Source: Pseudodesulfovibrio profundus (GTDB lineage: Bacteria; Desulfobacterota; Desulfovibrionia; Desulfovibrionales; Desulfovibrionaceae). From it: 64,000 bases of DNA. Each line of letters starts with the position of its first letter. Position 1 is the first letter of the stretch. Location of the stretch: positions 4,067,001-4,131,000 of the forward strand of contig NZ_LT907975.1 in the NCBI RefSeq assembly GCF_900217235.1. The letters are read 5' to 3'. The position numbers and the translations under genes are program-made. The notes below the pieces were generated by a model. That model had not been told where the DNA came from. It saw only the letters and a list, made by a program, of their open reading frames with translations, and searched no databases. Of this stretch, positions 5,986 to 31,795 are shown in pieces.

Positions 5986-7098
5986 CTATCCTTTGTAGGG
6001 CAGTATGATTGCCTTTGACTTGAGATCGATCTTCGGTTTGGCGGGCCATTCAGGAGCAAAAAGCTGGCCTGGCTCAAGAGGGCGCTTGTTCCCGTAATCG
6101 ATAAGGGTAAGCCCCTTGTGCGAGCATGCATACTGTCCCATGCCGCCATGTAGTCTGAAGGGCTGGGAGATAACACGAACGCCACCCCATGCTTTGCTTC
6201 CTTTTCCTGAAAGGTAGAGGAAGTTCATGGAGACATTGTCCTTGTCCAGCTTCGACTCAGCGGAGAGGTCATGCAACCACTGCGGTGCACCTTTGACGGA
6301 GAAGTTGAAGTGGCACCACGGGCTGGATTGAGAGAGTGCAGGCATTGGGCACTCTTCAACGTGAGGGCATGGAGCAATGGGCTTGAACCCGTTGTCCATC
6401 ATCTGGCTGCGCATTTCGGCAATGACGCGACCCGTCAGACGCACGCCGGTCTCGATCAGCAGGACGCGCCCGGTGTCTTTGGCAGAATTGATAAGATGCT
6501 TGGTCAGCTTTTCTGCCTGCGGTCTGGCTACGCGACCGGACCAGTCAAGTTCGTTCAAGGCATTGGCAACGATGATCAAATCCGCTTTGCGGTTGATACG
6601 GTCGGTGAATGCGGCTTTGACGGTCTTGATTCTCCATGGGGAATCCTTTCCGGCAATCTGCTGGAAGATTTTGAGGCCGGTCTGCATCGCCTTGGGAGCG
6701 CGATCCATACAGGTGAAATTCAGCTTGCGTTCGCGCAGGTGAGGGCGTGACATCCACAAAGCGAGCACTGCGGTCAGTGGACCACTGCCGAGATCAACCA
6801 CATCGCCACCATCAGGAATATCCAGCTCCAGGCCGGAAAAGAGCCGTGACATGCGGAAAAGGTTCCAGGGCAGAAAATAGTGGAGGTAAGGCGACTGGAA
6901 TTTCGCCTCACTCATGTAATCCGTTTTGCGTTCGGAGCGCTCGCTGGTCAGTCCGCGGGACATGTCGCGTATGTCGTATTTCAGGTGCTCTCTGTGTCTG
7001 GCTTTCATGGGCCAGACTTTTTTGAGAACGCGAATGAAACGCTCCAGTTCGGCTTCGTTTTCTTCAGTCAGAAGTGGGAAAAGTTGTTCAGTCGACAT
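5986..7098 (-). CDS. Rsm22-family SAM-dependent methyltransferase with four-cysteine motif
   Basis: The 370-residue protein matches the Rsm22 (mitochondrial small-subunit rRNA methyltransferase-like) family. It has a SAM site [11 protein letters not shown] (100-110), an ANALNEL motif (179-184), and a cysteine set Cys244, Cys250, Cys262 and Cys325 with the typical CPHVEECPM and WCHF contexts. In METTL17/Rsm22 homologues such cysteines bind a 4Fe-4S cluster; here that is inferred from spacing. It likely acts on the ribosomal small subunit. It overlaps the upstream RACE-like gene by 11 bases and ends 8 bases before lipB, so all four genes look co-transcribed. Confidence 0.85.
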
Positions 7099-8650
7099 AT
7101 GTAAAACGCATCCTTTTCATGAATTGATCGCCAAAGCTTGCATCTGAGGCGAGATCCAGGGCGGTTATGGTTGTGGGGAGAGTCTCGGCAAATCGGCGCG
7201 CATCAGGGTCTGTAACGAGGATTTCTGATCCCTTGAGCGCGGTATTGCCCGCCTTGACGGTTCTGTTTTTACAGTTGGGAGGCAGGAAACCGATTGTTTC
7301 GAGATCGTTCAAGCTGACGTGCTCGCCCAATGCACCGGCTATGTAAATTGTTTTTAAAGCAGATGGTTTGAGTTGGGCCTCATGTAACAGGGCAGACATG
7401 GCGAGGTTGAATGCTGCTTTAACCTTGAGAATTTCTTCAATGTCTGACGCCGGAAGCATGAGTCCGTGATCCAGTGCAAAGGCTGGCTCTCCAATTTCTG
7501 TTGTTATCAGATCCTTGGCGAGTTTTGCAGCCAGTGGTGTGGTTCCTTGCCCGAACTGGCCGGAATCGTCAAGGATACCGTGGCGGATCAGGGTGGCAGT
7601 TAATGAAATATATCCCGTCCCAGTCATGCCGGTAGGGGGCGTGTGCGACTCGTCAAACAAGACCTTCTGTAATTCCTTGGGCGTCAAACGAAAGCCGGTT
7701 ACTGCTCCGGGGCCGGCTGTTCTGCCATGGGTCAGCCCGACTCCTTCCAATGCAGGCCCCATGGGAACCGATGCACAGAGCCGTTTGTCCGGGCCGAGTG
7801 CGAGAATGAATTCGCCATTGGTACCCAGATCGGCAAGGAGGAACGGGTACTCAACATCGGCGTCATACTCGATGGCAGTCAGCCCGGCGCTGAGATCAGC
7901 ACCAATGAATGGTGCCAACAGTGGCGCTATGTAAGCTGGGGGAAGATCAGCCCCGAGCTTTTTTTCTTCACCGCCGAAATAGGAAAGCGTGTAGGGGGCG
8001 CTGGCAAGGTCGTCCGGTTTTTTGCCCAGCAGAACGTATGTCATGGCGGAGTTGCCGGACACGGCCATGGACACGCACTTGCCCTGCATGTTGTGACTGG
8101 CAAGCCGGACCAGCTCTGTCAGACGATCAAGAATGAGCGCTCGAAGGATGAATCGGCCTTCAGCGTTTGCAGCAACAGCCAGTCGGGACATTATTTCGCT
8201 GCCAAGTCCCATTTGCGGGTTGAGTTCGTGGCCGGTGGCGACTGACTCATTTCCTATCAGAACGGACCAGTGTATGGATGTCGTGCCAAGATCAATGGCA
8301 AGGGAAAAGTCTCCGGTAGTCGTGGAGGTGGCTCGAATGGCTCGTTGACTGCGTGTTGGAGCGGGAAGTTCGATGTCGCACGACTCGGAGGGGTGAAGGC
8401 AGGAGAGTCGCCATCCCTGAACCAGAGCTTCTTCGCCGAGCTTCTTTTTTTCTTCCAGAACCGGCTCAGGCGGGTTTTCAGTGAAGCGGACCTTGCACAA
8501 TCCGCATTTCCCAAGGCCGGAGCAAAGAGCCACGCCATGCCATAACCTGCTCATAACGATGGTTTTGGCCAGGGTGTCCCCTTCGCGAGGTTCCAGGGCC
8601 AGCAGTGTCCCGTCATGTGTTTTGATACGTATGCTCACGATTCGCTCCAT
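7088..8650 (-). CDS. RACE-like 2Fe-2S ferredoxin/ASKHA (DUF4445) protein
   Basis: The 520-residue protein joins an N-terminal 2Fe-2S ferredoxin domain (Cys43, Cys49, Cys52, Cys84) to an ASKHA-type ATPase-like domain beginning near residue 115 with AIDLGTTS, and containing LADLGTNGE and IAGALGEH motifs. This layout is that of reductive activators of corrinoid proteins (RamA/RACo type), which use ATP to drive reduction of Co(II) to Co(I). No corrinoid methyltransferase gene is adjacent, so its target is unknown. The ATG at 8650 lacks a clear ribosome site; a GTG at 8638 preceded by GGAG is an equally good start. Confidence 0.85.
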   Translation of the reverse strand: MERIVSIRIKTHDGTLLALEPREGDTLAKTIVMSRLWHGVALCSGLGKCGLCKVRFTENPPEPVLEEKKKLGEEALVQGWRLSCLHPSESCDIELPAPTRSQRAIRATSTTTGDFSLAIDLGTTSIHWSVLIGNESVATGHELNPQMGLGSEIMSRLAVAANAEGRFILRALILDRLTELVRLASHNMQGKCVSMAVSGNSAMTYVLLGKKPDDLASAPYTLSYFGGEEKKLGADLPPAYIAPLLAPFIGADLSAGLTAIEYDADVEYPFLLADLGTNGEFILALGPDKRLCASVPMGPALEGVGLTHGRTAGPGAVTGFRLTPKELQKVLFDESHTPPTGMTGTGYISLTATLIRHGILDDSGQFGQGTTPLAAKLAKDLITTEIGEPAFALDHGLMLPASDIEEILKVKAAFNLAMSALLHEAQLKPSALKTIYIAGALGEHVSLNDLETIGFLPPNCKNRTVKAGNTALKGSEILVTDPDARRFAETLPTTITALDLASDASFGDQFMKRMRFTYVD

Positions 8651-13108: not shown

Positions 13109-14098
13109 TTACGGCAGCATGTGCGTTTGCGAGAGAGCGTCCTTGAGATGATCCACATACATTTGTGCGAATGCATCCACAGAGCCAAGCCCACGAAGTT
13201 CGGTCTTCACGTTGAATCCGGCTTTGGTCAGCATGACCTTCCAGGAATCATCCTCATCACCAGCCATGTCGTTGGAGGCGTGATCACCGGCTACAACCAT
13301 GAAAGGTTTCATGAGAACATTCTTCTTGCCCGAGGCTTTCAGCGCGGCCAGCAGGTCGTTGAAGTTTGGAAATCCTTCCACGCATCCGACAAATACTGGA
13401 TACCCATGGACTGCCTGCATCTCACGCTGGAATTCTGCATAAATGCCTGTTGAGTAAAAGTCGTTGCCATGCCCCATGTAAACGAGCGCCGCATTGTTTG
13501 CTTTGGCATCCTCGACATCGTGGGCCAGGGCATCAACCGCGGTCCGTATGTCATCCATATACGGATATTTGTCTCCCGGCATACCGAGGGCAGGGCGTCC
13601 AAGACGCAGGGAGGTGAAGGGCTGCCATTTGGCTTTTACCGTCTTGATGGAACGAAGCCCCACCATGACAGCCTTGAGATCGGCAAATTCTTCACCGGCG
13701 AAGATATGCAGTGGTTGAACTGCGATATCCTTGTACCCTGCATCCTGCAGGAGCCCCAGAGTGGCCAAGGGGCTTTTGACGTAAAGGATATCTTCAGGAA
13801 TGGAAGGATTCTCTTTGAGCCACTGCTCATTGGACTGGCGCTTTTGCCAGATGCCACGGATGATATCGGACGTAAAAGCGAGGCGGATGTGAATGTCGGG
13901 AAACTCCGCAGCAACTTTGTTCCGAATGTTGAGGATGGATTCAAGCGTCTTTGGATACGATGTGCCAAAGGCCGCCAAAACAATCGCTTTTTTGGCGGGT
14001 TCGCTTACGTGATGCCCGGCCTTTGCTGGCAAGGTGGTCACAAGGCAGAAAAAGATAAGGAGCGCCGGTACAAGTGTACGGCGGGTCAATAGGGTCAT
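13109..14098 (-). CDS. cbiK: Exported (periplasmic) cobaltochelatase, CbiK-P type
   Basis: This 329-residue CbiK paralogue begins with a Sec signal peptide (hydrophobic residues 10-24, cleavage probably after AKA at 26). The chelatase core keeps His210 (GHG), Glu241 (GCVEG) and His273 (AGDH). In Desulfovibrio vulgaris an exported CbiK-P next to the same transporter genes has been described as a haem-binding tetramer proposed to act in metal or tetrapyrrole traffic rather than B12 synthesis. Here it is the first gene after the cobalamin riboswitch, with a strong GGAGG ribosome site. Confidence 0.92.
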   Translation of the reverse strand: MTLLTRRTLVPALLIFFCLVTTLPAKAGHHVSEPAKKAIVLAAFGTSYPKTLESILNIRNKVAAEFPDIHIRLAFTSDIIRGIWQKRQSNEQWLKENPSIPEDILYVKSPLATLGLLQDAGYKDIAVQPLHIFAGEEFADLKAVMVGLRSIKTVKAKWQPFTSLRLGRPALGMPGDKYPYMDDIRTAVDALAHDVEDAKANNAALVYMGHGNDFYSTGIYAEFQREMQAVHGYPVFVGCVEGFPNFNDLLAALKASGKKNVLMKPFMVVAGDHASNDMAGDEDDSWKVMLTKAGFNVKTELRGLGSVDAFAQMYVDHLKDALSQTHMLP

Positions 14099-14225: not shown

Positions 14226-14396
14226 AAACCAATATCGTTTTCAGGCAGGTCTTCCGGCTGGCTCCTCCTGTTTTCGCCTTCCCGACCGGTGGTCAGTGGC
14301 ATAATGAAAACAGTTCGGCAGAGCGTCACGGCGGCGGGTCCGCTCCCGATTTACACGGGATTCCCTATCAAGTCCGTCAGGACACCTGAAGCTGAG
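14226..14396 (-). promoter_or_regulatory. Cobalamin (B12) riboswitch
   Basis: The minus-strand leader contains the cobalamin aptamer landmarks: GGGAATCCCGTGTAAATCGG (around 14345-14366), an adjacent GGACCCGCCGCCGTGA segment, the GCCACTG...GGGAAGGC arm, and the B12 box AGCCGGAAGACCTGCCTG (14243-14260). It is followed by an intrinsic terminator and then by the exported CbiK gene. High adenosylcobalamin should therefore shut off the chelatase-transporter-cbiL-cbiK operon. Edges are approximate. Confidence 0.93.
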
Positions 14397-14426
14397 CTAA
14401 TAGGCTGGTCGTCCAGTCTCTGTCAA
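14397..14426 (-). promoter_or_regulatory. Sigma-70-type promoter for the riboswitch-controlled operon
   Basis: On the minus strand a perfect TTGACA (14421-14426) is separated by 18 bases from TATTAG (14397-14402). Initiation would fall just upstream of the riboswitch aptamer, as expected. Confidence 0.65.
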
Positions 14427-14432
14427 GGTCGT

Positions 14433-16082
14433 CTAACTGGAGGTGTTGATGCGATCCTGAAAATTCTGGAGCATCTCTTCAGTGTCGATGACCAGTGCAT
14501 CGGATTCACCCATCATTCCGTAGCCCAGAATGGGGACATGGAAAATCTCTTCTACCGGAACGGTGAAGCCGGTGATAACGACCTGCTGCTGGCGAAGCAC
14601 TTCATCAACCAGAATGGCAGCCTTGTATTCTCCCACTCGAACGACGATGGCCTGCGCCATTTCAATGTCGTCCACTTCGGGTGTTATGCCGAGAAGATCG
14701 CCAAGTCTGAGCAGGGAGTGGACTTCGCCTCGAACGTCAACAGTTTCGCGACCATCCGGCAGTTCGACGACCTCGTTGTGGCGAGGCATGTAGATTTCCA
14801 TGACGTCACGACTGGGAACGATGTAGACCTCTCCGCCGACCTTGCAGACCAGGGCGTCGACAATGCCTTCGTTGGCCGAGCGGTCGAGGGGGATGGATAT
14901 GGTGAACGATGCGCCGTGGCCCAGGTCGCTTTCGATGGTCACATCACCATCAAGAGTGACACGAATGGCGTTGACGACCGCATCCATGCCGACACCGCGA
15001 CCGGAAACGTCGGTAATTTTTTCTGCCGTTGAAAAGCCTGACTGGAGGACGAATTGAAGAATTTCGTTCTTTTCGTACTCTTCCGATGGATCGGCCAGCC
15101 CCTTCTCAATCGCCTTGTTCAGAATGCGGTCGGGATCAAGCCCGCGACCGTCATCCTTGACCTGAATGTATGCGTTGTCGCCCTTGCGCCATGCGGCGAG
15201 AGTGACATTGCCGACTTCGGGCTTGCTGGTTTCCTTACGCTCTTCCGGTGTCTCCAAACCGTGGTCGACTGCATTGCGCAGCAGGTGAACCAGTGGTTCG
15301 TTGAGGCTTTCGACAATGGTCTTGTCGAGGGGGAGTTCATCTCCCTTGACCGTGAAGTCAAGCTTCTTGCCGATCTTCTGGCTAAGGGATTTGACCAGGC
15401 GATGCATGGGCATGAAAATCTGCTTGAGCGGAACAAGCCGGATGGCATCAACTTCCTTCTGAAGCTGGCTGATGACATTGTCGAGTTCACGCAGCGAAGA
15501 TGCCACCTGATTGAGGTTGGTCGTGCCACCCTGTGCAATGACAGCGTAGGTGACCATGAGCTTTCCTACCAGTTCGATGACGCGATCGAGGCTGTCGGTC
15601 GGAACACGTATCGATGAAATGGCCTGCTGGCTCGAGGGCTTTTCCGCTTTGGCTTTTGTTTTTGCTTCCTGTGGTTCGGCTTCCGGTGCTGCATCCGCTT
15701 CGGCAGGTGATACTTCTTCCGGTTTTTCCTCGAATGCCTTGGCTGCTTCCTCTTCATTTTCTTCAAGGAAGGATTCATCTGCTACGGGCTTGGAATCGAC
15801 GATGCCCATTGAGGTGGCACCGGCTTCCATGTTGCCGCCAAGAGCGAATAAAAATCGCTTCTGGGCTTCGCAGACGCCGAGCATGGCTGTGATGATATCG
15901 TCGTTGACCGGCGTGATGCCGTCGGTCAGCATGTCCAATATGGCAATGACACTGGCGCTTGACAGTTTCATGTTGGACAGTCCGAGCGCATCCACAGCGT
16001 CACCGGCATTCTGGCCGGTTGCTGATACTTCGAGAATTTGTTTCTCAATCTCTTCGATGCATTGGATGATGCTGTCCTGCAT
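14433..16082 (-). CDS. CheA-like kinase core lacking the phospho-histidine domain
   Basis: The 549-residue protein has CheA domains P3 to P5: dimerisation helices (about 160-225, starting RVPTDSLDRVIELVGKL), an HATPase domain with N box HLLRNAVDHGLE (266-277), G1 DDGRGLD (310-316) and G2 GRGVGMDAV (361-369), and a CheW-like domain (about 405-545). Residues 41-80 resemble the last helices of a P1 domain, but no histidine occurs before His227, so it cannot carry the phosphoryl group itself. The Hpt domain is encoded 14 bases upstream by a separate gene. The protein is soluble. Confidence 0.9.
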   Translation of the reverse strand: MQDSIIQCIEEIEKQILEVSATGQNAGDAVDALGLSNMKLSSASVIAILDMLTDGITPVNDDIITAMLGVCEAQKRFLFALGGNMEAGATSMGIVDSKPVADESFLEENEEEAAKAFEEKPEEVSPAEADAAPEAEPQEAKTKAKAEKPSSQQAISSIRVPTDSLDRVIELVGKLMVTYAVIAQGGTTNLNQVASSLRELDNVISQLQKEVDAIRLVPLKQIFMPMHRLVKSLSQKIGKKLDFTVKGDELPLDKTIVESLNEPLVHLLRNAVDHGLETPEERKETSKPEVGNVTLAAWRKGDNAYIQVKDDGRGLDPDRILNKAIEKGLADPSEEYEKNEILQFVLQSGFSTAEKITDVSGRGVGMDAVVNAIRVTLDGDVTIESDLGHGASFTISIPLDRSANEGIVDALVCKVGGEVYIVPSRDVMEIYMPRHNEVVELPDGRETVDVRGEVHSLLRLGDLLGITPEVDDIEMAQAIVVRVGEYKAAILVDEVLRQQQVVITGFTVPVEEIFHVPILGYGMMGESDALVIDTEEMLQNFQDRINTSS

Positions 16083-16096
16083 GTATGTTCCCCGAA

Positions 16097-16822
16097 TTAT
16101 TGCGTCGTAAAATAAGTTTCTTCATCAGGATAGATGGCGATTGTCGAATCAAATTTCCAAGTATAGAGAGTGGATTTTGCGTCAGGTGACAAGCCGCATG
16201 CCGCGATTTGAAATGTCGTTCCCATGCTGGCAATTGCGCCCCACGCAGTTGATCCGAAGGTCAGTACCTCCGAGAGATCAAGGAGTATTTTGTCTCCGGG
16301 TTCCACTCCCATGATTGCGCCCATGATGGGCTTGTAATGAGCATCAATATGAACACGAGGATCTTTCACCCTGAGAATAGTGACCTCATCCCGGGTCTCC
16401 ACTGCCACTCCGGCCCCTGCCACAAACCCATCTTCCTGACCCGAGGCCGAAGCTTCGGCTATCAATGCCAGGACTTCCTGCTGTTCCTCTTCATCCACTT
16501 CGTCATCACGCAACTGTTCCAGAACCTGGAAGATCATGTTGACGCCACGAGAGAGCAGCGTCAGATTTTCGCTGGTTGGGTCCACATCCCCCGATTGGAC
16601 CTTTTTGAGAAAATCCTCGATCTGATGGGTGAAGTGAGATGCAGGTTCAAATCCGGCCATGAACCCGGTAACCCCTTTGATCGTGTGCAAAGGGCGTGAG
16701 AGAATCTCAATGCCTTCGCCAACGTCTGCGGATTCGAGCATCTCCAACCCTTCCATCACTTGAGGGTAGTACTTGTCATTGACCTCGGAAAAGAATTCTT
16801 CGATCATGGGATCGTCGGTCAT
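16097..16822 (-). CDS. Hpt (histidine phosphotransfer) plus STAS-like domain protein
   Basis: The 241-residue protein has an N-terminal Hpt domain (about 1-105) with phospho-acceptor His46 in LHTIKG, followed by an acidic linker and a C-terminal region (about 145-240) that looks like a STAS-type fold (VTILRVKDPRV, then DKILLDLSEVLTFGSTAWGA). This is the P1 function missing from the adjacent CheA core, so the two proteins together make one kinase. The STAS-like domain could give the complex a partner-binding or sensing role; this part is an inference. Confidence 0.85.
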   Translation of the reverse strand: MTDDPMIEEFFSEVNDKYYPQVMEGLEMLESADVGEGIEILSRPLHTIKGVTGFMAGFEPASHFTHQIEDFLKKVQSGDVDPTSENLTLLSRGVNMIFQVLEQLRDDEVDEEEQQEVLALIAEASASGQEDGFVAGAGVAVETRDEVTILRVKDPRVHIDAHYKPIMGAIMGVEPGDKILLDLSEVLTFGSTAWGAIASMGTTFQIAACGLSPDAKSTLYTWKFDSTIAIYPDEETYFTTQ

Positions 16823-16837
16823 ATTCCCAATCCTGTC

Positions 16838-17233
16838 CTAATTGTTGAGCAAACCGAGCTTTTTCAATTCCATATACAATTTATCTTTGGCCACAGGCTT
16901 GACGATGTAAGCGGATGCTTCCCCGTCATAGAATGATTTTAGCACGGTCTGCGGATCATCCAGCGCTGTTGTCATGATCACTTTGGCCTTGGGGCTGAGG
17001 CTTTCCTGCTCTTCCATGGTTCGTATCCGGTTGAGCGCTTCAATGCCATCCACTTCTGGCATCATGATGTCCATGAGAATAAGTGAGTATGGTTTGTTTT
17101 CGGTGTGGGCCAGCTTGAATGCCTCCACCGCTTCACGTCCATTAACAACAATGTCCACGTCAAATAGTGCCATGAGGAACGATTTCAGCACTTTTCGACT
17201 CAGGAATTCGTCTTCGACAATGAGTGCTCTCAT
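16838..17233 (-). CDS. CheY-like single-domain response regulator
   Basis: This 131-residue receiver has the acidic pair Glu7/Asp8, phospho-acceptor Asp55 (LMDIMMPEVDG), Thr88/Thr89 and conserved Lys112 (VKP). There is no output domain. It is the first gene of a three-gene unit with the Hpt-STAS protein (15-base gap) and the CheA core, and is the likely phosphoryl target. A TTGACA hexamer lies upstream, but no well-spaced -10 box was found. Confidence 0.92.
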   Translation of the reverse strand: MRALIVEDEFLSRKVLKSFLMALFDVDIVVNGREAVEAFKLAHTENKPYSLILMDIMMPEVDGIEALNRIRTMEEQESLSPKAKVIMTTALDDPQTVLKSFYDGEASAYIVKPVAKDKLYMELKKLGLLNN

Positions 17234-18883: not shown

Positions 18884-20356
18884 ATGACGCAAACCGAGAT
18901 CAGTCCTGATACGCATCTTATTCTCGTGGCAGAGGACAGTAAGGTTGTCTATACTGCCCTTAAGTCCACAATCGAAGAGCATCTGAAATTTGAAGTCGTT
19001 GTTCTGAAGTCGTTTGATGAGGCTCAATCGTTTCTTGATTCCAATGAACAGCCTATATTTGTCGCAATTCTTGATCTGCACATGCCGGGGTCCCGGGATG
19101 GACAGATTGTGGACATGTTTTGTGAAAGGAAAATTCCCAGCATCGTCTACACCTCGGATTTCACCGAGGAAACCCGCAAGCGCATGCAGTCGAAGAACAT
19201 CATTGACTATCTGGTCAAGAATTCAAAGACTGTCGATAATCTCATAGAATATCTTGCAAATTTATATCGCAACACCCGCATCCACGCTCTCCTGGTGGAG
19301 GATTCGGGGTCGTTTCGTCTTTGGATGCGGCATATGCTGGAGAAGCAGCAGTTCAATGTCATTGAGGCGAGAGATGGCGAAGAAGCGTGGAAGTATATTC
19401 TCTCACATGACAAAATCGATCTTGTTGTCGCTGACTATGCTTTGCCCGGCATGGATGGAATTGAGCTGACACAAGCCATCCGCAACAAATATTCCAAGCA
19501 GGAAATAATCGTGCTTGGATTGTCTTCTGTTTCTGATCCCATGTTGACTGCACGGTTTATCAAAAGCGGTGCCAATGACTTCCTGGCCAAACCGGTACAG
19601 GTCGAGGAGCTGTTCTGTCGCGTCAACCACCATGTCGAAATGTTGGATACGATTCGGGCACTTCGGAAATCTGATCAACTGAAAAACCTGTTTATGGGGA
19701 TGGCTGTGCATGATTTGCGTAGCCCCATCAATGGAATTAACGGTTTTACGACCATGCTTCTGGATGGCACGTATGGGCCTCTCAGTGAGGAGCAAAAAGA
19801 GATCATCCAATTTGTCCATGATGCAAATAAGAACATGGGGCTGCTGGTGCATGACCTGCTGGATATTTCCGTCATTGAATCGGGTAAACTGGTTTTGGAA
19901 AAAAGGGAGTCCAACATCGAAATCCTGGTTGAACACCGTTTGCGGATTCATGGACACATGGCAAAAAACAAAGGGGTTCAGTTAATTCCGTATTTTGAAG
20001 ATGTCGCACCCTTCCCATTTGATGAGAATCGAATTGGTCAGGTGCTCGACAATCTGCTGACCAATGCAATCAAATTTTCTCCCAGTAATGGCATCGTCAA
20101 GGTATTGGTTTCGTCTCAGGAAGACAGTGTGAAAATATGTATTCAGGATAAAGGGGAGGGCGTACCGCCAGGGGAAGAGATGCTCCTTTTCCAGTCGTTC
20201 TCCAAAACAAGCATTGAGCCGACAGGCGGTGAATCCGGGACCGGCCTCGGGTTGCCAATCGTCAAAAAGATTGTGGAAGCCCATGGGGGCAAAGTCTGGG
20301 TGGTGAGCGATTATCCTCATGGCGCCACTTTCTGCTTCTCCCTGCCTGCCAGGTAG
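18884..20356 (+). CDS. REC-REC-histidine kinase hybrid protein
   Basis: The 490-residue soluble protein has two N-terminal receiver domains (about 10-128 with Asp64 in LDLHMP, and 133-250 with Asp184 in VADYALPGMDG), a HisKA domain with His276 (VHDLRSPINGI) and an HATPase domain with an N box near 390-400, DKGEGVPPG and GTGLGLPIVKK. No sensor or membrane segment is present, so input must come through phosphorylation of the receivers or a partner. The ATG follows a GGGAGAA site. No cognate regulator is adjacent. Confidence 0.9.
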   Translation: MTQTEISPDTHLILVAEDSKVVYTALKSTIEEHLKFEVVVLKSFDEAQSFLDSNEQPIFVAILDLHMPGSRDGQIVDMFCERKIPSIVYTSDFTEETRKRMQSKNIIDYLVKNSKTVDNLIEYLANLYRNTRIHALLVEDSGSFRLWMRHMLEKQQFNVIEARDGEEAWKYILSHDKIDLVVADYALPGMDGIELTQAIRNKYSKQEIIVLGLSSVSDPMLTARFIKSGANDFLAKPVQVEELFCRVNHHVEMLDTIRALRKSDQLKNLFMGMAVHDLRSPINGINGFTTMLLDGTYGPLSEEQKEIIQFVHDANKNMGLLVHDLLDISVIESGKLVLEKRESNIEILVEHRLRIHGHMAKNKGVQLIPYFEDVAPFPFDENRIGQVLDNLLTNAIKFSPSNGIVKVLVSSQEDSVKICIQDKGEGVPPGEEMLLFQSFSKTSIEPTGGESGTGLGLPIVKKIVEAHGGKVWVVSDYPHGATFCFSLPAR

Positions 20357-30772: not shown

Positions 30773-31795
30773 CTAGGAAGTCTTTTTACGTTGCTCAATG
30801 AGGCTTGCAGAGCGCTGGGCGAGCTGGGTGATCTCCGGCTTGGAAATCTGATCGTCTGCGCCGACGGTTTCGCCTCGGTGCCGTAGCTTTTCCGTAATCA
30901 GAGAGGAGAACAGAATGACCGGCAGATTCCTGAGAACCGGGTCCTCTTTGATGCGTTTACAAAGATGATGACCATCCATCATGGGCATTTCAATATCTGA
31001 AACGATTACCTGGACATAGTCGGTAATTGGTCTTCCATCCTGAGCAGCGTTTTCCTTCAGCTCCTGAAGTCGATCCCAGCACTCTCGGCCATTGTTGGTC
31101 TTCTCGACCCGGAATCCGGCCTGGCCCAGCATGTCATGTATCATTTCTCGAATGAGCGGGGAGTCGTCAGCAATGAGCGCCTTGTAGCCACTGGCACCTT
31201 CCAGTTGGAAGTCGTCATCCAGTTTGAGGCGCATTTGCGGGTTCAACTCAGAAACAATGCGCTCGAGGTCGAGTATGAAAACGATCCGGTCATCCAGTTT
31301 CACCACGCCGGTGATGGAATCACTGGAGAGGGCTGAAACATATTTGTTCGGGGCTTCGACGTCTTCCCAACTGATGCGGTGAATACGTGTGACGCCAGAA
31401 ACCATGAAGGCGGAAGTGACCTGGTTGAACTCCGTTACAATGACCTTGGGCGGTTCGTTCTGAACTCGCTTCTTCTTCAGCCAGATGGAAAGATCGAGCA
31501 AGGGAATAATGCGCGAACGGAGATTGAAGGCGCCAAGTACTGATTGGTGAGATACCTCGGGCATCTCAGTTACCTCAGGCATTCTGATAATTTCCAGTAC
31601 CTTGGCGACATTGATGCCGTAATAGCTTTTACGGCTGGGCTTTCTCTGTCCATCTTTTGATGAAGAGGGATCTGTTACTTCCTCGTTCAACTCACCATCT
31701 TCATCCGCCTTGGGTTCTTCTTCAAGGTAGAACTCGACGATTTCAAGCTCGTTTGTACCAGCTTCAAGTAGTATTTCAGTGGACGACTGGGCCAT
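30773..31795 (-). CDS. cheV: CheV-type chemotaxis coupling protein (CheW-like plus receiver)
   Basis: The 340-residue protein has a CheW-like domain (about 15-190) with an unusual acidic, serine-rich insertion at about 25-55, then a receiver domain (about 208-335) with the acidic pair in ALIADDSP and phospho-acceptor Asp in VIVSDIEMPMMDG. CheV proteins couple receptors to CheA and help adaptation. It could serve the split CheA system at 14433-17233, but there is no direct evidence. dus lies upstream on the same strand. Confidence 0.92.
   Translation of the reverse strand: MAQSSTEILLEAGTNELEIVEFYLEEEPKADEDGELNEEVTDPSSSKDGQRKPSRKSYYGINVAKVLEIIRMPEVTEMPEVSHQSVLGAFNLRSRIIPLLDLSIWLKKKRVQNEPPKVIVTEFNQVTSAFMVSGVTRIHRISWEDVEAPNKYVSALSSDSITGVVKLDDRIVFILDLERIVSELNPQMRLKLDDDFQLEGASGYKALIADDSPLIREMIHDMLGQAGFRVEKTNNGRECWDRLQELKENAAQDGRPITDYVQVIVSDIEMPMMDGHHLCKRIKEDPVLRNLPVILFSSLITEKLRHRGETVGADDQISKPEITQLAQRSASLIEQRKKTS

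Follow-up and report, generated by a model that had tools for sequence, protein, structure and literature searches.

A putative split CheA with its P1 domain fused to a STAS domain, conserved in Pseudodesulfovibrio and related genomes

Introduction

The closest described counterpart of the system treated here is the CheA3/CheA4 pair of Rhodobacter sphaeroides (with CheY6). According to passages of PMC3591291, neither half autophosphorylates alone while a mixture of the two phosphorylates CheA3, and trans-phosphorylation from one CheA half to the other has been established biochemically for this pair; the same passages name it as the only biochemically characterized split CheA, and quote a survey with 11 split versus 470 complete CheAs. 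According to PMC2829493, CheA4-like proteins occurred in four more of the species examined in 2010. We describe here a three-gene set of sulfate-reducing bacteria with a similar division of domains, found on the minus strand of a 64,000-nt window (the whole stretch of DNA analyzed, positions 4067001-4131000 of the main contig of the Pseudodesulfovibrio profundus genome): a lone receiver, a protein joining a CheA-type P1 to a STAS domain (P1-STAS), and a CheA core.

As in the R. sphaeroides pair, there is a P3-P4-P5 half without a phosphorylatable P1, a P1 on a second protein, and a cognate receiver. The differences are in the architecture. CheA3 is described as having a P5 and, after its P1, a long linker with a phosphatase domain, and CheA4 as consisting of P3-P4-P5 alone (passages of PMC2829493 and PMC3591291). 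Here, P1 is fused to STAS without any P5, and the core keeps a degenerate P1. The genes here also form a set of three without other che genes beside it. The original prediction had placed the STAS fusion outside the CheA3/CheA4 design, and rightly so: the P1 protein has STAS in place of P5, and because it lacks P5 this is not a CheA3/CheA4 pair, though it would work like a split CheA.

The STAS domain is otherwise known from sigma-factor switches, and HsbA, mentioned below, is a STAS protein. Two described systems bring such a domain near a phosphorelay. CheS of Sinorhizobium and Agrobacterium is portrayed in parts of PMC12654446 as a STAS domain acting on CheA, but it is a separate single-domain protein, whereas here STAS is fused to P1, and the analogy is by description only. 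In Pseudomonas aeruginosa, HptB-HsbR-HsbA (an Hpt, a receiver-PP2C-kinase and a STAS-type antagonist) couples partner switching to a His-Asp relay; there, however, the Hpt and the antagonist are two proteins, and the kinases named in the pertinent part of PMC6482189 are hybrid histidine kinases, not CheA. No P1-STAS or Hpt-STAS protein with a CheA core was found in a search of open-licence papers, and the main text of the D. vulgaris cheA paper (PMC3944678) contains neither "Hpt" nor "STAS."

The three-gene set is real and conserved, and appears to be a new form of split CheA. At a probability of roughly 0.7, we read it as one in which the core would phosphorylate His46 of P1-STAS in trans, P1-STAS would pass the phosphoryl group to the receiver, and STAS would dock or regulate.

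Results

The three proteins

The genes are packed tightly, with intergenic gaps of 15 and 14 bases and a purine-rich stretch upstream of each of the three starts. The original prediction, made from the letters of the window, described three adjacent minus-strand genes with a receiver Asp55, an Hpt His46 and a CheA core; the open reading frames (ORFs) and residues were all found in place:

16838-17233, minus: lone receiver, a single-domain response regulator encoded by the first of the three genes, 131 amino acids (aa); Pfam Response_reg, 2.6e-19
17069-17071, minus: codon of receiver Asp55, the phospho-acceptor
16097-16822, minus: P1-STAS protein, 241 aa, from Pfam and the fold of the predicted model
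16430-16822, minus: CheA-type P1 (Hpt) domain, residues 1-131 of P1-STAS; fold match to 1i5n_D, and hhalign
16685-16687, minus: codon of His46, the phospho-acceptor, in the motif RPLHTIKG, from conserved alignment rows
16100-16411, minus: predicted STAS domain, residues 138-241 of P1-STAS; fold match to 1tid_D, alignment to TM1442 and 3t6o
16250-16252, minus: codon of S191, the STAS acceptor position
16355-16357, minus: codon of R156, invariant, in STAS
14433-16082, minus: CheA kinase core without a phosphorylatable P1 histidine, 549 aa
15831-16082, minus: apparent degenerate P1, core residues 1-84, helix B shortened and HTIKG site lost; hhalign, column shuffles and model
15438-15614, minus: P3 dimerization helices, core residues 157-215; H-kinase_dim, and two long helices in the model
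14880-15437, minus: P4 ATP-binding kinase domain, core residues 216-401, with N, G1, F, and G2 motifs intact; HATPase_c, invariant columns, and 8oyq_A
14445-14870, minus: P5 CheW-like regulatory domain, core residues 405-546; Pfam CheW

The first half of P1-STAS is a CheA-type P1 with His46 as its phospho-site. It has a Pfam Hpt match above the cut-off (2.3e-6), and in an AlphaFold model built from 32 sequences (predicted local distance difference test score, pLDDT, 88.6) residues 3-131 superpose on a CheA P1 (1i5n_D; VIA-align Z 16.4, 127 aligned, 2.4 Å) and on the P1 of R. sphaeroides CheA3 (3kyj_A; Z 15.4, 126 aligned, 2.4 Å); a Foldseek search with the model returned the same two families, CheA P1 and STAS. 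Against a profile of 18 P1 domains from complete CheAs, hhalign gave this half a probability of 99.7 (E 1.1e-26). H46, K49, H66, and E69 are identical in all 49 P1-STAS rows with letters there, at positions which we take to be those of H48, K51, H67, and E70 in E. coli CheA. Fold, profile, and conserved residues together thus identify a CheA-type P1 and not a generic Hpt. At E<=1, Pfam finds no CheW (P5) on P1-STAS, and CheW is likewise missing from the Pfam families that 32 homologues match at E<=0.01.

The second half is weak as a STAS domain by sequence, and holds as one by its predicted fold. The Pfam STAS match (E 0.0044, 17.2 bits) is below the curated cut-off of 22.6, and among 32 homologues 11 matched STAS and 4 STAS_2 (Pfam, E<=0.01). 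The model of residues 133-241 matches SpoIIAA (1tid_D; Z 14.8, 107 aligned, 1.9 Å), with further STAS proteins in the fold listing down to a Z of about 11, in agreement with the STAS-like C-terminal half originally proposed. Alignment to TM1442 and 3t6o sets S191, at the start of a helix (191-198) in the model, against the Ser of the TM1442 DSAG motif, presumably the phosphorylated residue; the position is Ser in 48, Thr in 1, and Pro in 1 of 50 rows. Residue 192 was also considered as the acceptor, and was dropped on the same alignment. The surroundings are less typical. In antagonists of the SpoIIAA/RsbV type we take the Asp residues around the acceptor to matter; P1-STAS has the acceptor Ser at the start of helix 2, but not the acidic setting, with Gly, Asn, or Ser before S191 where antagonists have Asp, and the pocket Asp replaced by Arg156, invariant in 50 of 50 rows (H158 and W222 are retained in 48). 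The window's lineage may retain a working serine switch, but a docking surface or ligand pocket is likelier.

In the core, Pfam finds CheW (1.6e-16) and HATPase_c (1.7e-14), with H-kinase_dim just under the cut-off (2.5e-4); at E<=0.01, CheW and HATPase_c each match 27 of 27 homologues and H-kinase_dim 26. The core model (pLDDT 78.6) aligns with the P3-P4-P5 of a CheA (3ja6_C; Z 26.5, 366 aligned, 5.9 Å), and its P4 alone with 8oyq_A (Z 26.5, 172 aligned, 1.2 Å, 46% identity). H266, R269, N270, D273, H274, D310-G312, F350, S351, and G361-M366 are invariant in 27 core rows; these residues make up what we take to be the N, G1, F, and G2 motifs, and the catalytic motifs of P4 are intact.

The original prediction saw on the core what seemed to be the tail of a P1 domain. 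A P1 remnant is indeed present, but profile, model, and shuffles make it look like a whole, degenerate P1 (residues 1-84) that has lost its HTIKG phospho-site and much of helix B. Residues 6-78 match true P1 domains (hhalign probability 94.3, E 1e-7) with a gap opening over the HTIKG segment, while the best of 100 column-shuffled P1 profiles reached a probability of 3.0 and the reversed profile 0.1. The model has four helices here (2-22, 26-33, 43-53, and 61-81), the second of 8 residues versus 21 in the partner's P1; the whole-core fold comparison spans residues 157-401, and the four-helix N-terminus rests on model and profile. A second candidate relative of the core N-terminus, the additional domain found ahead of P1 in the sister CheAs described below, was rejected (probability 0.4, versus 94.3 for P1).

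Both unusual domains, the degenerate P1 and STAS, are maintained by purifying selection. Among genus members, with synonymous sites near saturation, the 15 core rows give the degenerate P1 a ratio of nonsynonymous to synonymous polymorphism (pN/pS) of 0.36, against 0.68 in the linker behind it and 0.22-0.25 in P3-P5; in 18 P1-STAS rows the ratio is 0.21 for the P1 half, 0.75 for the linker, and 0.43 for the STAS half.

The receiver has no output domain by Pfam, and its E7, D8, D55, and K112 are identical in 46 of 46 rows. It is 49 and 45% identical to two other lone receivers of the genome, and 29% identical to a 125-aa receiver (C1:992469) beside the 974-aa complete CheA described below.

Distribution, synteny, and phylogeny

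Among 148 relatives searched, both halves of P1-STAS were matched in 47 genomes; it is in two frames in one further genome (G032) and runs to a contig end in another (G056), for a total of 49. Within the genus it was found in 35 of 36 genomes, P. profundus included, the exception being an assembly that is 82% complete (G008). In the order, matches at E<=1e-20 were found in 83 of 348 genomes and 13 of 59 genera. A search of 395 genomes of the phylum gave at least three rows covering both halves fully, the three listed all being from the same family; at most six candidates were scored per genome, making this a lower bound, and the other matches listed mostly end before the STAS half, in frames of CheA-like size.

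Gene neighborhoods were read at 50 loci from 49 distinct genomes (L001 and L079 being the same). The core adjoins P1-STAS in all of them, and a close relative of the receiver is beside the set in 46 of the 50 (45 of the 49 genomes). A survey of neighborhoods had been proposed with the original prediction, and its outcome, a P1-STAS and core pair conserved in 49 genomes, rules out chance. With one query each from the window genome, a receptor was matched at 1 of 50 loci (L044) and CheR at none; CheB matches, in 33 loci, are, among the 25 listed, receiver-size stretches within other proteins. The earlier observation that no receptor or methylation gene is adjacent is supported. Gene picks by longest ORF are unreliable in G+C-rich loci.

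When 27 cores were placed in a tree with 15 complete CheAs, the cores formed one clade (support 100/98). Its sister is a group of four complete CheAs (at loci L091, L097, L099, and L101), whose P1 motif, FRPFHTIKGVSGFL, is close to the RPLHTIKGVTGFM of P1-STAS; these differ in being single-chain kinases, with one or two P1 domains and no STAS match at E<=0.1. L049 and L050, the most divergent sets, have long branches that group together; their placement is unsure, though both have the same gene pair. The split-CheA reading first offered for the locus is supported by sequence, fold, synteny, and tree.

Discussion

A probable split CheA with its P1 on a STAS protein

In the reading we prefer, the P3-P4-P5 of the core would dimerize and bind ATP, and its CheW-like P5 would answer to a chemoreceptor array whose receptors and CheW come from other loci of the genome. 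Since its own P1 phospho-site is lost, the core would phosphorylate His46 of the separate P1-STAS in trans, and P1-STAS would hand the phosphoryl group to the lone receiver, the product of the first gene of the operon. STAS stands where a single-chain CheA has P2 or R. sphaeroides CheA3 has P5. It most likely either docks P1, which is mobile, to the receiver or the residual P1 of the core, or gates P1 through the S191/R156 pocket.

Split CheAs are rare, and a compact, conserved, three-gene version would offer a second test case for the idea that a split kinase gives a switch-like response. A P1 that is under selection but has no phospho-histidine raises the question of what a P1 does when it is not phosphorylatable. 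The P1-STAS fusion itself, relatives of which are encoded next to RsbW-like and PP2C genes, suggests that chemosensory kinases and partner switching are linked directly and physically. The genus Pseudodesulfovibrio has cultured members.

Outside the set, the genome encodes 31 frames with a methyl-accepting chemotaxis protein (MCP) signaling domain, two small CheW-like frames, and four frames of 325-354 aa that have a CheW domain and are CheV-like in size, so the P5 of the core has arrays to join. A CheW-domain frame (111 bits), CheV-like by size, is in the window at 30773-31795 (minus), about 14 kb from the set.

Several observations weigh against this reading, and the first concerns the same chemosensory genes. 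Two complete, P1-containing CheAs, of 742 and 974 aa, are encoded elsewhere in the genome; the larger (L105 7471-10395; G000 C1:989470-992394) has three Hpt stretches and adjoins genes that by eye are receiver-, CheR-, and CheB-like. With these CheAs and the CheW frames at hand, P1-STAS may be phosphorylated by another CheA, or the core may act on other P1s, and such cross-talk is the main doubt.

A second group of observations concerns the core. The original prediction noted no histidine before residue 227; this holds for the window core, whose first His is residue 227, but not for the family, in which 37 of 50 rows have a His before position 160. In 26 of these 37 it is at position 37, outside helix B, where the window core has Asn. 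The 13 rows without include L034, one of two (with L052) that are incomplete at the N-terminus. The core N-terminus also fails to match the P1 of P1-STAS (probability 0.6), which tempers its assignment as a P1, and it is therefore not a recent copy of the partner's P1.

Third, the set is not everywhere intact. The core is truncated in L034 and split over two frames in L052 (8472-10176, G001). In L039 (6382-7109, G032) it is P1-STAS that is read in two overlapping frames, of 94 and 148 aa; the two-frame reading in L039 and L052 could be a frameshift, an error, or a true split. Four of the 49 genomes lack a close relative of the receiver beside the set. Upstream in L046 is a hybrid kinase of 1492 aa with two receiver stretches; in L049 a lone receiver of 121 aa (27.5 bits to the window's) is encoded four genes upstream in the same run; L050 has a receiver-PP2C instead; and in L048 the contig ends.

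Finally, a whole, old neighborhood has been inherited, and this makes up much of the co-inheritance. A TrmH-like gene is found at all 36 genus loci and 9 of the 14 others, and a CbiK-like gene likewise (36/36 and 9/14); since these flanking genes are kept along with the set, the counts overstate how far synteny alone argues for partnership. The set is nevertheless intact at loci where neither neighbor was found, as three genes in L047, and as P1-STAS and core in L046, L049, and L050.

Divergent sets and a possible second kinase

The most divergent sets, L049 (from another family of the order) and L050, with 33 and 31% identity, have neighbors that suggest where the STAS half came from. In both, the gene directly upstream of P1-STAS encodes an HATPase_c_2 protein (1.1e-13 and 1.8e-12) with a C-terminal STAS-like part, the two being homologous (2e-48). 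A SpoIIE (PP2C) phosphatase is encoded one gene further upstream in L049 (3e-37), and downstream on the opposite strand, fused to a receiver, in L050 (1.6e-35). In the L049 P1-STAS, it is the STAS part that the L050 HATPase matches (4.4e-7; the larger of two stretches covers residues 142-214), and the STAS-like part of this HATPase is found by the P1-STAS profile (1.7e-6). From these neighbors, the STAS half probably came from a partner-switching module.

Related operons carry the comparison further. L133 (G104:C18, 4345-9565), which resembles the P. aeruginosa system introduced above, encodes, one after another, a receiver-PP2C, an HATPase_c_2-STAS, a 367-aa Hpt-(middle region)-STAS, and a complete CheA; the operon looks like a chemosensory kinase wired to a partner switch. 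L129 (G047:C13, 5828-8788) has a receiver-PP2C, an HATPase_c_2-STAS, and an Hpt-STAS (start codon uncertain) in a row, with no CheA core in the 14 kb read; the same genome also has a P1-STAS set (L037). In another genome (G100, L128), an 81% copy of the L049 HATPase gene is present, but neither P1-STAS nor core appears within the 14 kb read. The simplest story, in an order that we infer, would be that Hpt-STAS arose in CheA-coupled partner-switching operons, that the CheA of this lineage then lost its phospho-site, and that the HATPase and PP2C were dropped later.

These neighbors also suggest an alternative, which we consider unlikely: P1-STAS as a junction of two kinases, with the CheA core acting on His46, an RsbW-like HATPase on Ser191, and a PP2C resetting Ser191. 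The output would be release or capture of a STAS partner, instead of or besides the receiver. Besides the L049, L050, and L133 arrangements and the L050 HATPase match to STAS, the alignment of S191 (Ser or Thr in 49 of 50 rows) with the DSAG Ser speaks for it. However, the HATPase and phosphatase are beside the set in just 2 of 50 loci, and were not found beside the window's; no homologue of the L049 HATPase (E<=1e-5) was found in the window genome or the 35 other genus genomes; and both small RsbW-like kinases of the window genome have STAS and PP2C neighbors of their own (further HATPase_c_2 matches are in longer frames). Arg156 in place of the pocket Asp, and Gly, Asn, or Ser before S191, also argue against this alternative, and on the HATPases Pfam gives STAS a match of 0.036 in L049 and none at E<=0.1 in L050. 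In its boldest form, P1-STAS would compute chemoreceptor output and a sigma-type partner switch on one molecule, L049 and L050 would still encode the whole circuit, and in the window's lineage the STAS gate would remain, its pocket rebuilt (Arg156) and binding either a ligand or a partner that is phosphorylated; this, too, is doubtful.

No more probable is a CheS-like role, in which STAS docking would make P1 prefer one receiver and speed dephosphorylation, and the lone receiver would be a phosphate sink for another CheA. S. meliloti CheS, a single STAS domain, is reported in a part of PMC12654446 to bind CheA and affect CheA-CheY binding, and the lack of an output domain would suit a sink; but with the kinase motifs of the adjacent core intact a pure sink role is not needed. 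It is very unlikely that the core is a regulator or pseudo-kinase modulating the complete CheAs in mixed arrays while these phosphorylate P1-STAS: such CheAs are in the same genome and P5 would allow co-assembly, but the core's catalytic residues are invariant, its P4 is under strong purifying selection, and it is co-inherited with P1-STAS.

Flanking features and other observations

Promoter and terminator scans of the locus gave scores no better than shuffles. Upstream of the set is a divergent gene, and downstream, between the core and the next gene (13109-14098), is a cobalamin riboswitch (14227-14404, minus, 106.4 bits); these flanking genes are the ones we call TrmH-like and CbiK-like, respectively, names assigned by eye. 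The three-gene set lies between them in much of the family. A Pseudodesulfovibrio metagenome-assembled genome (MAG) is among the relatives, with 79% identity.

The window also encodes, at 18884-20356 (plus), what looks by eye like a histidine kinase with two N-terminal receivers; a similar protein was matched at 34 of the 36 genus loci. Elsewhere in the genome, a 262-aa frame (G000 C1:2184578-2185264, plus) has receiver and STAS matches, i.e., encodes a receiver-STAS protein. In another genome (L130, G081), a lone receiver is followed by an Hpt-receiver protein (6248-7655), possibly another Hpt module.

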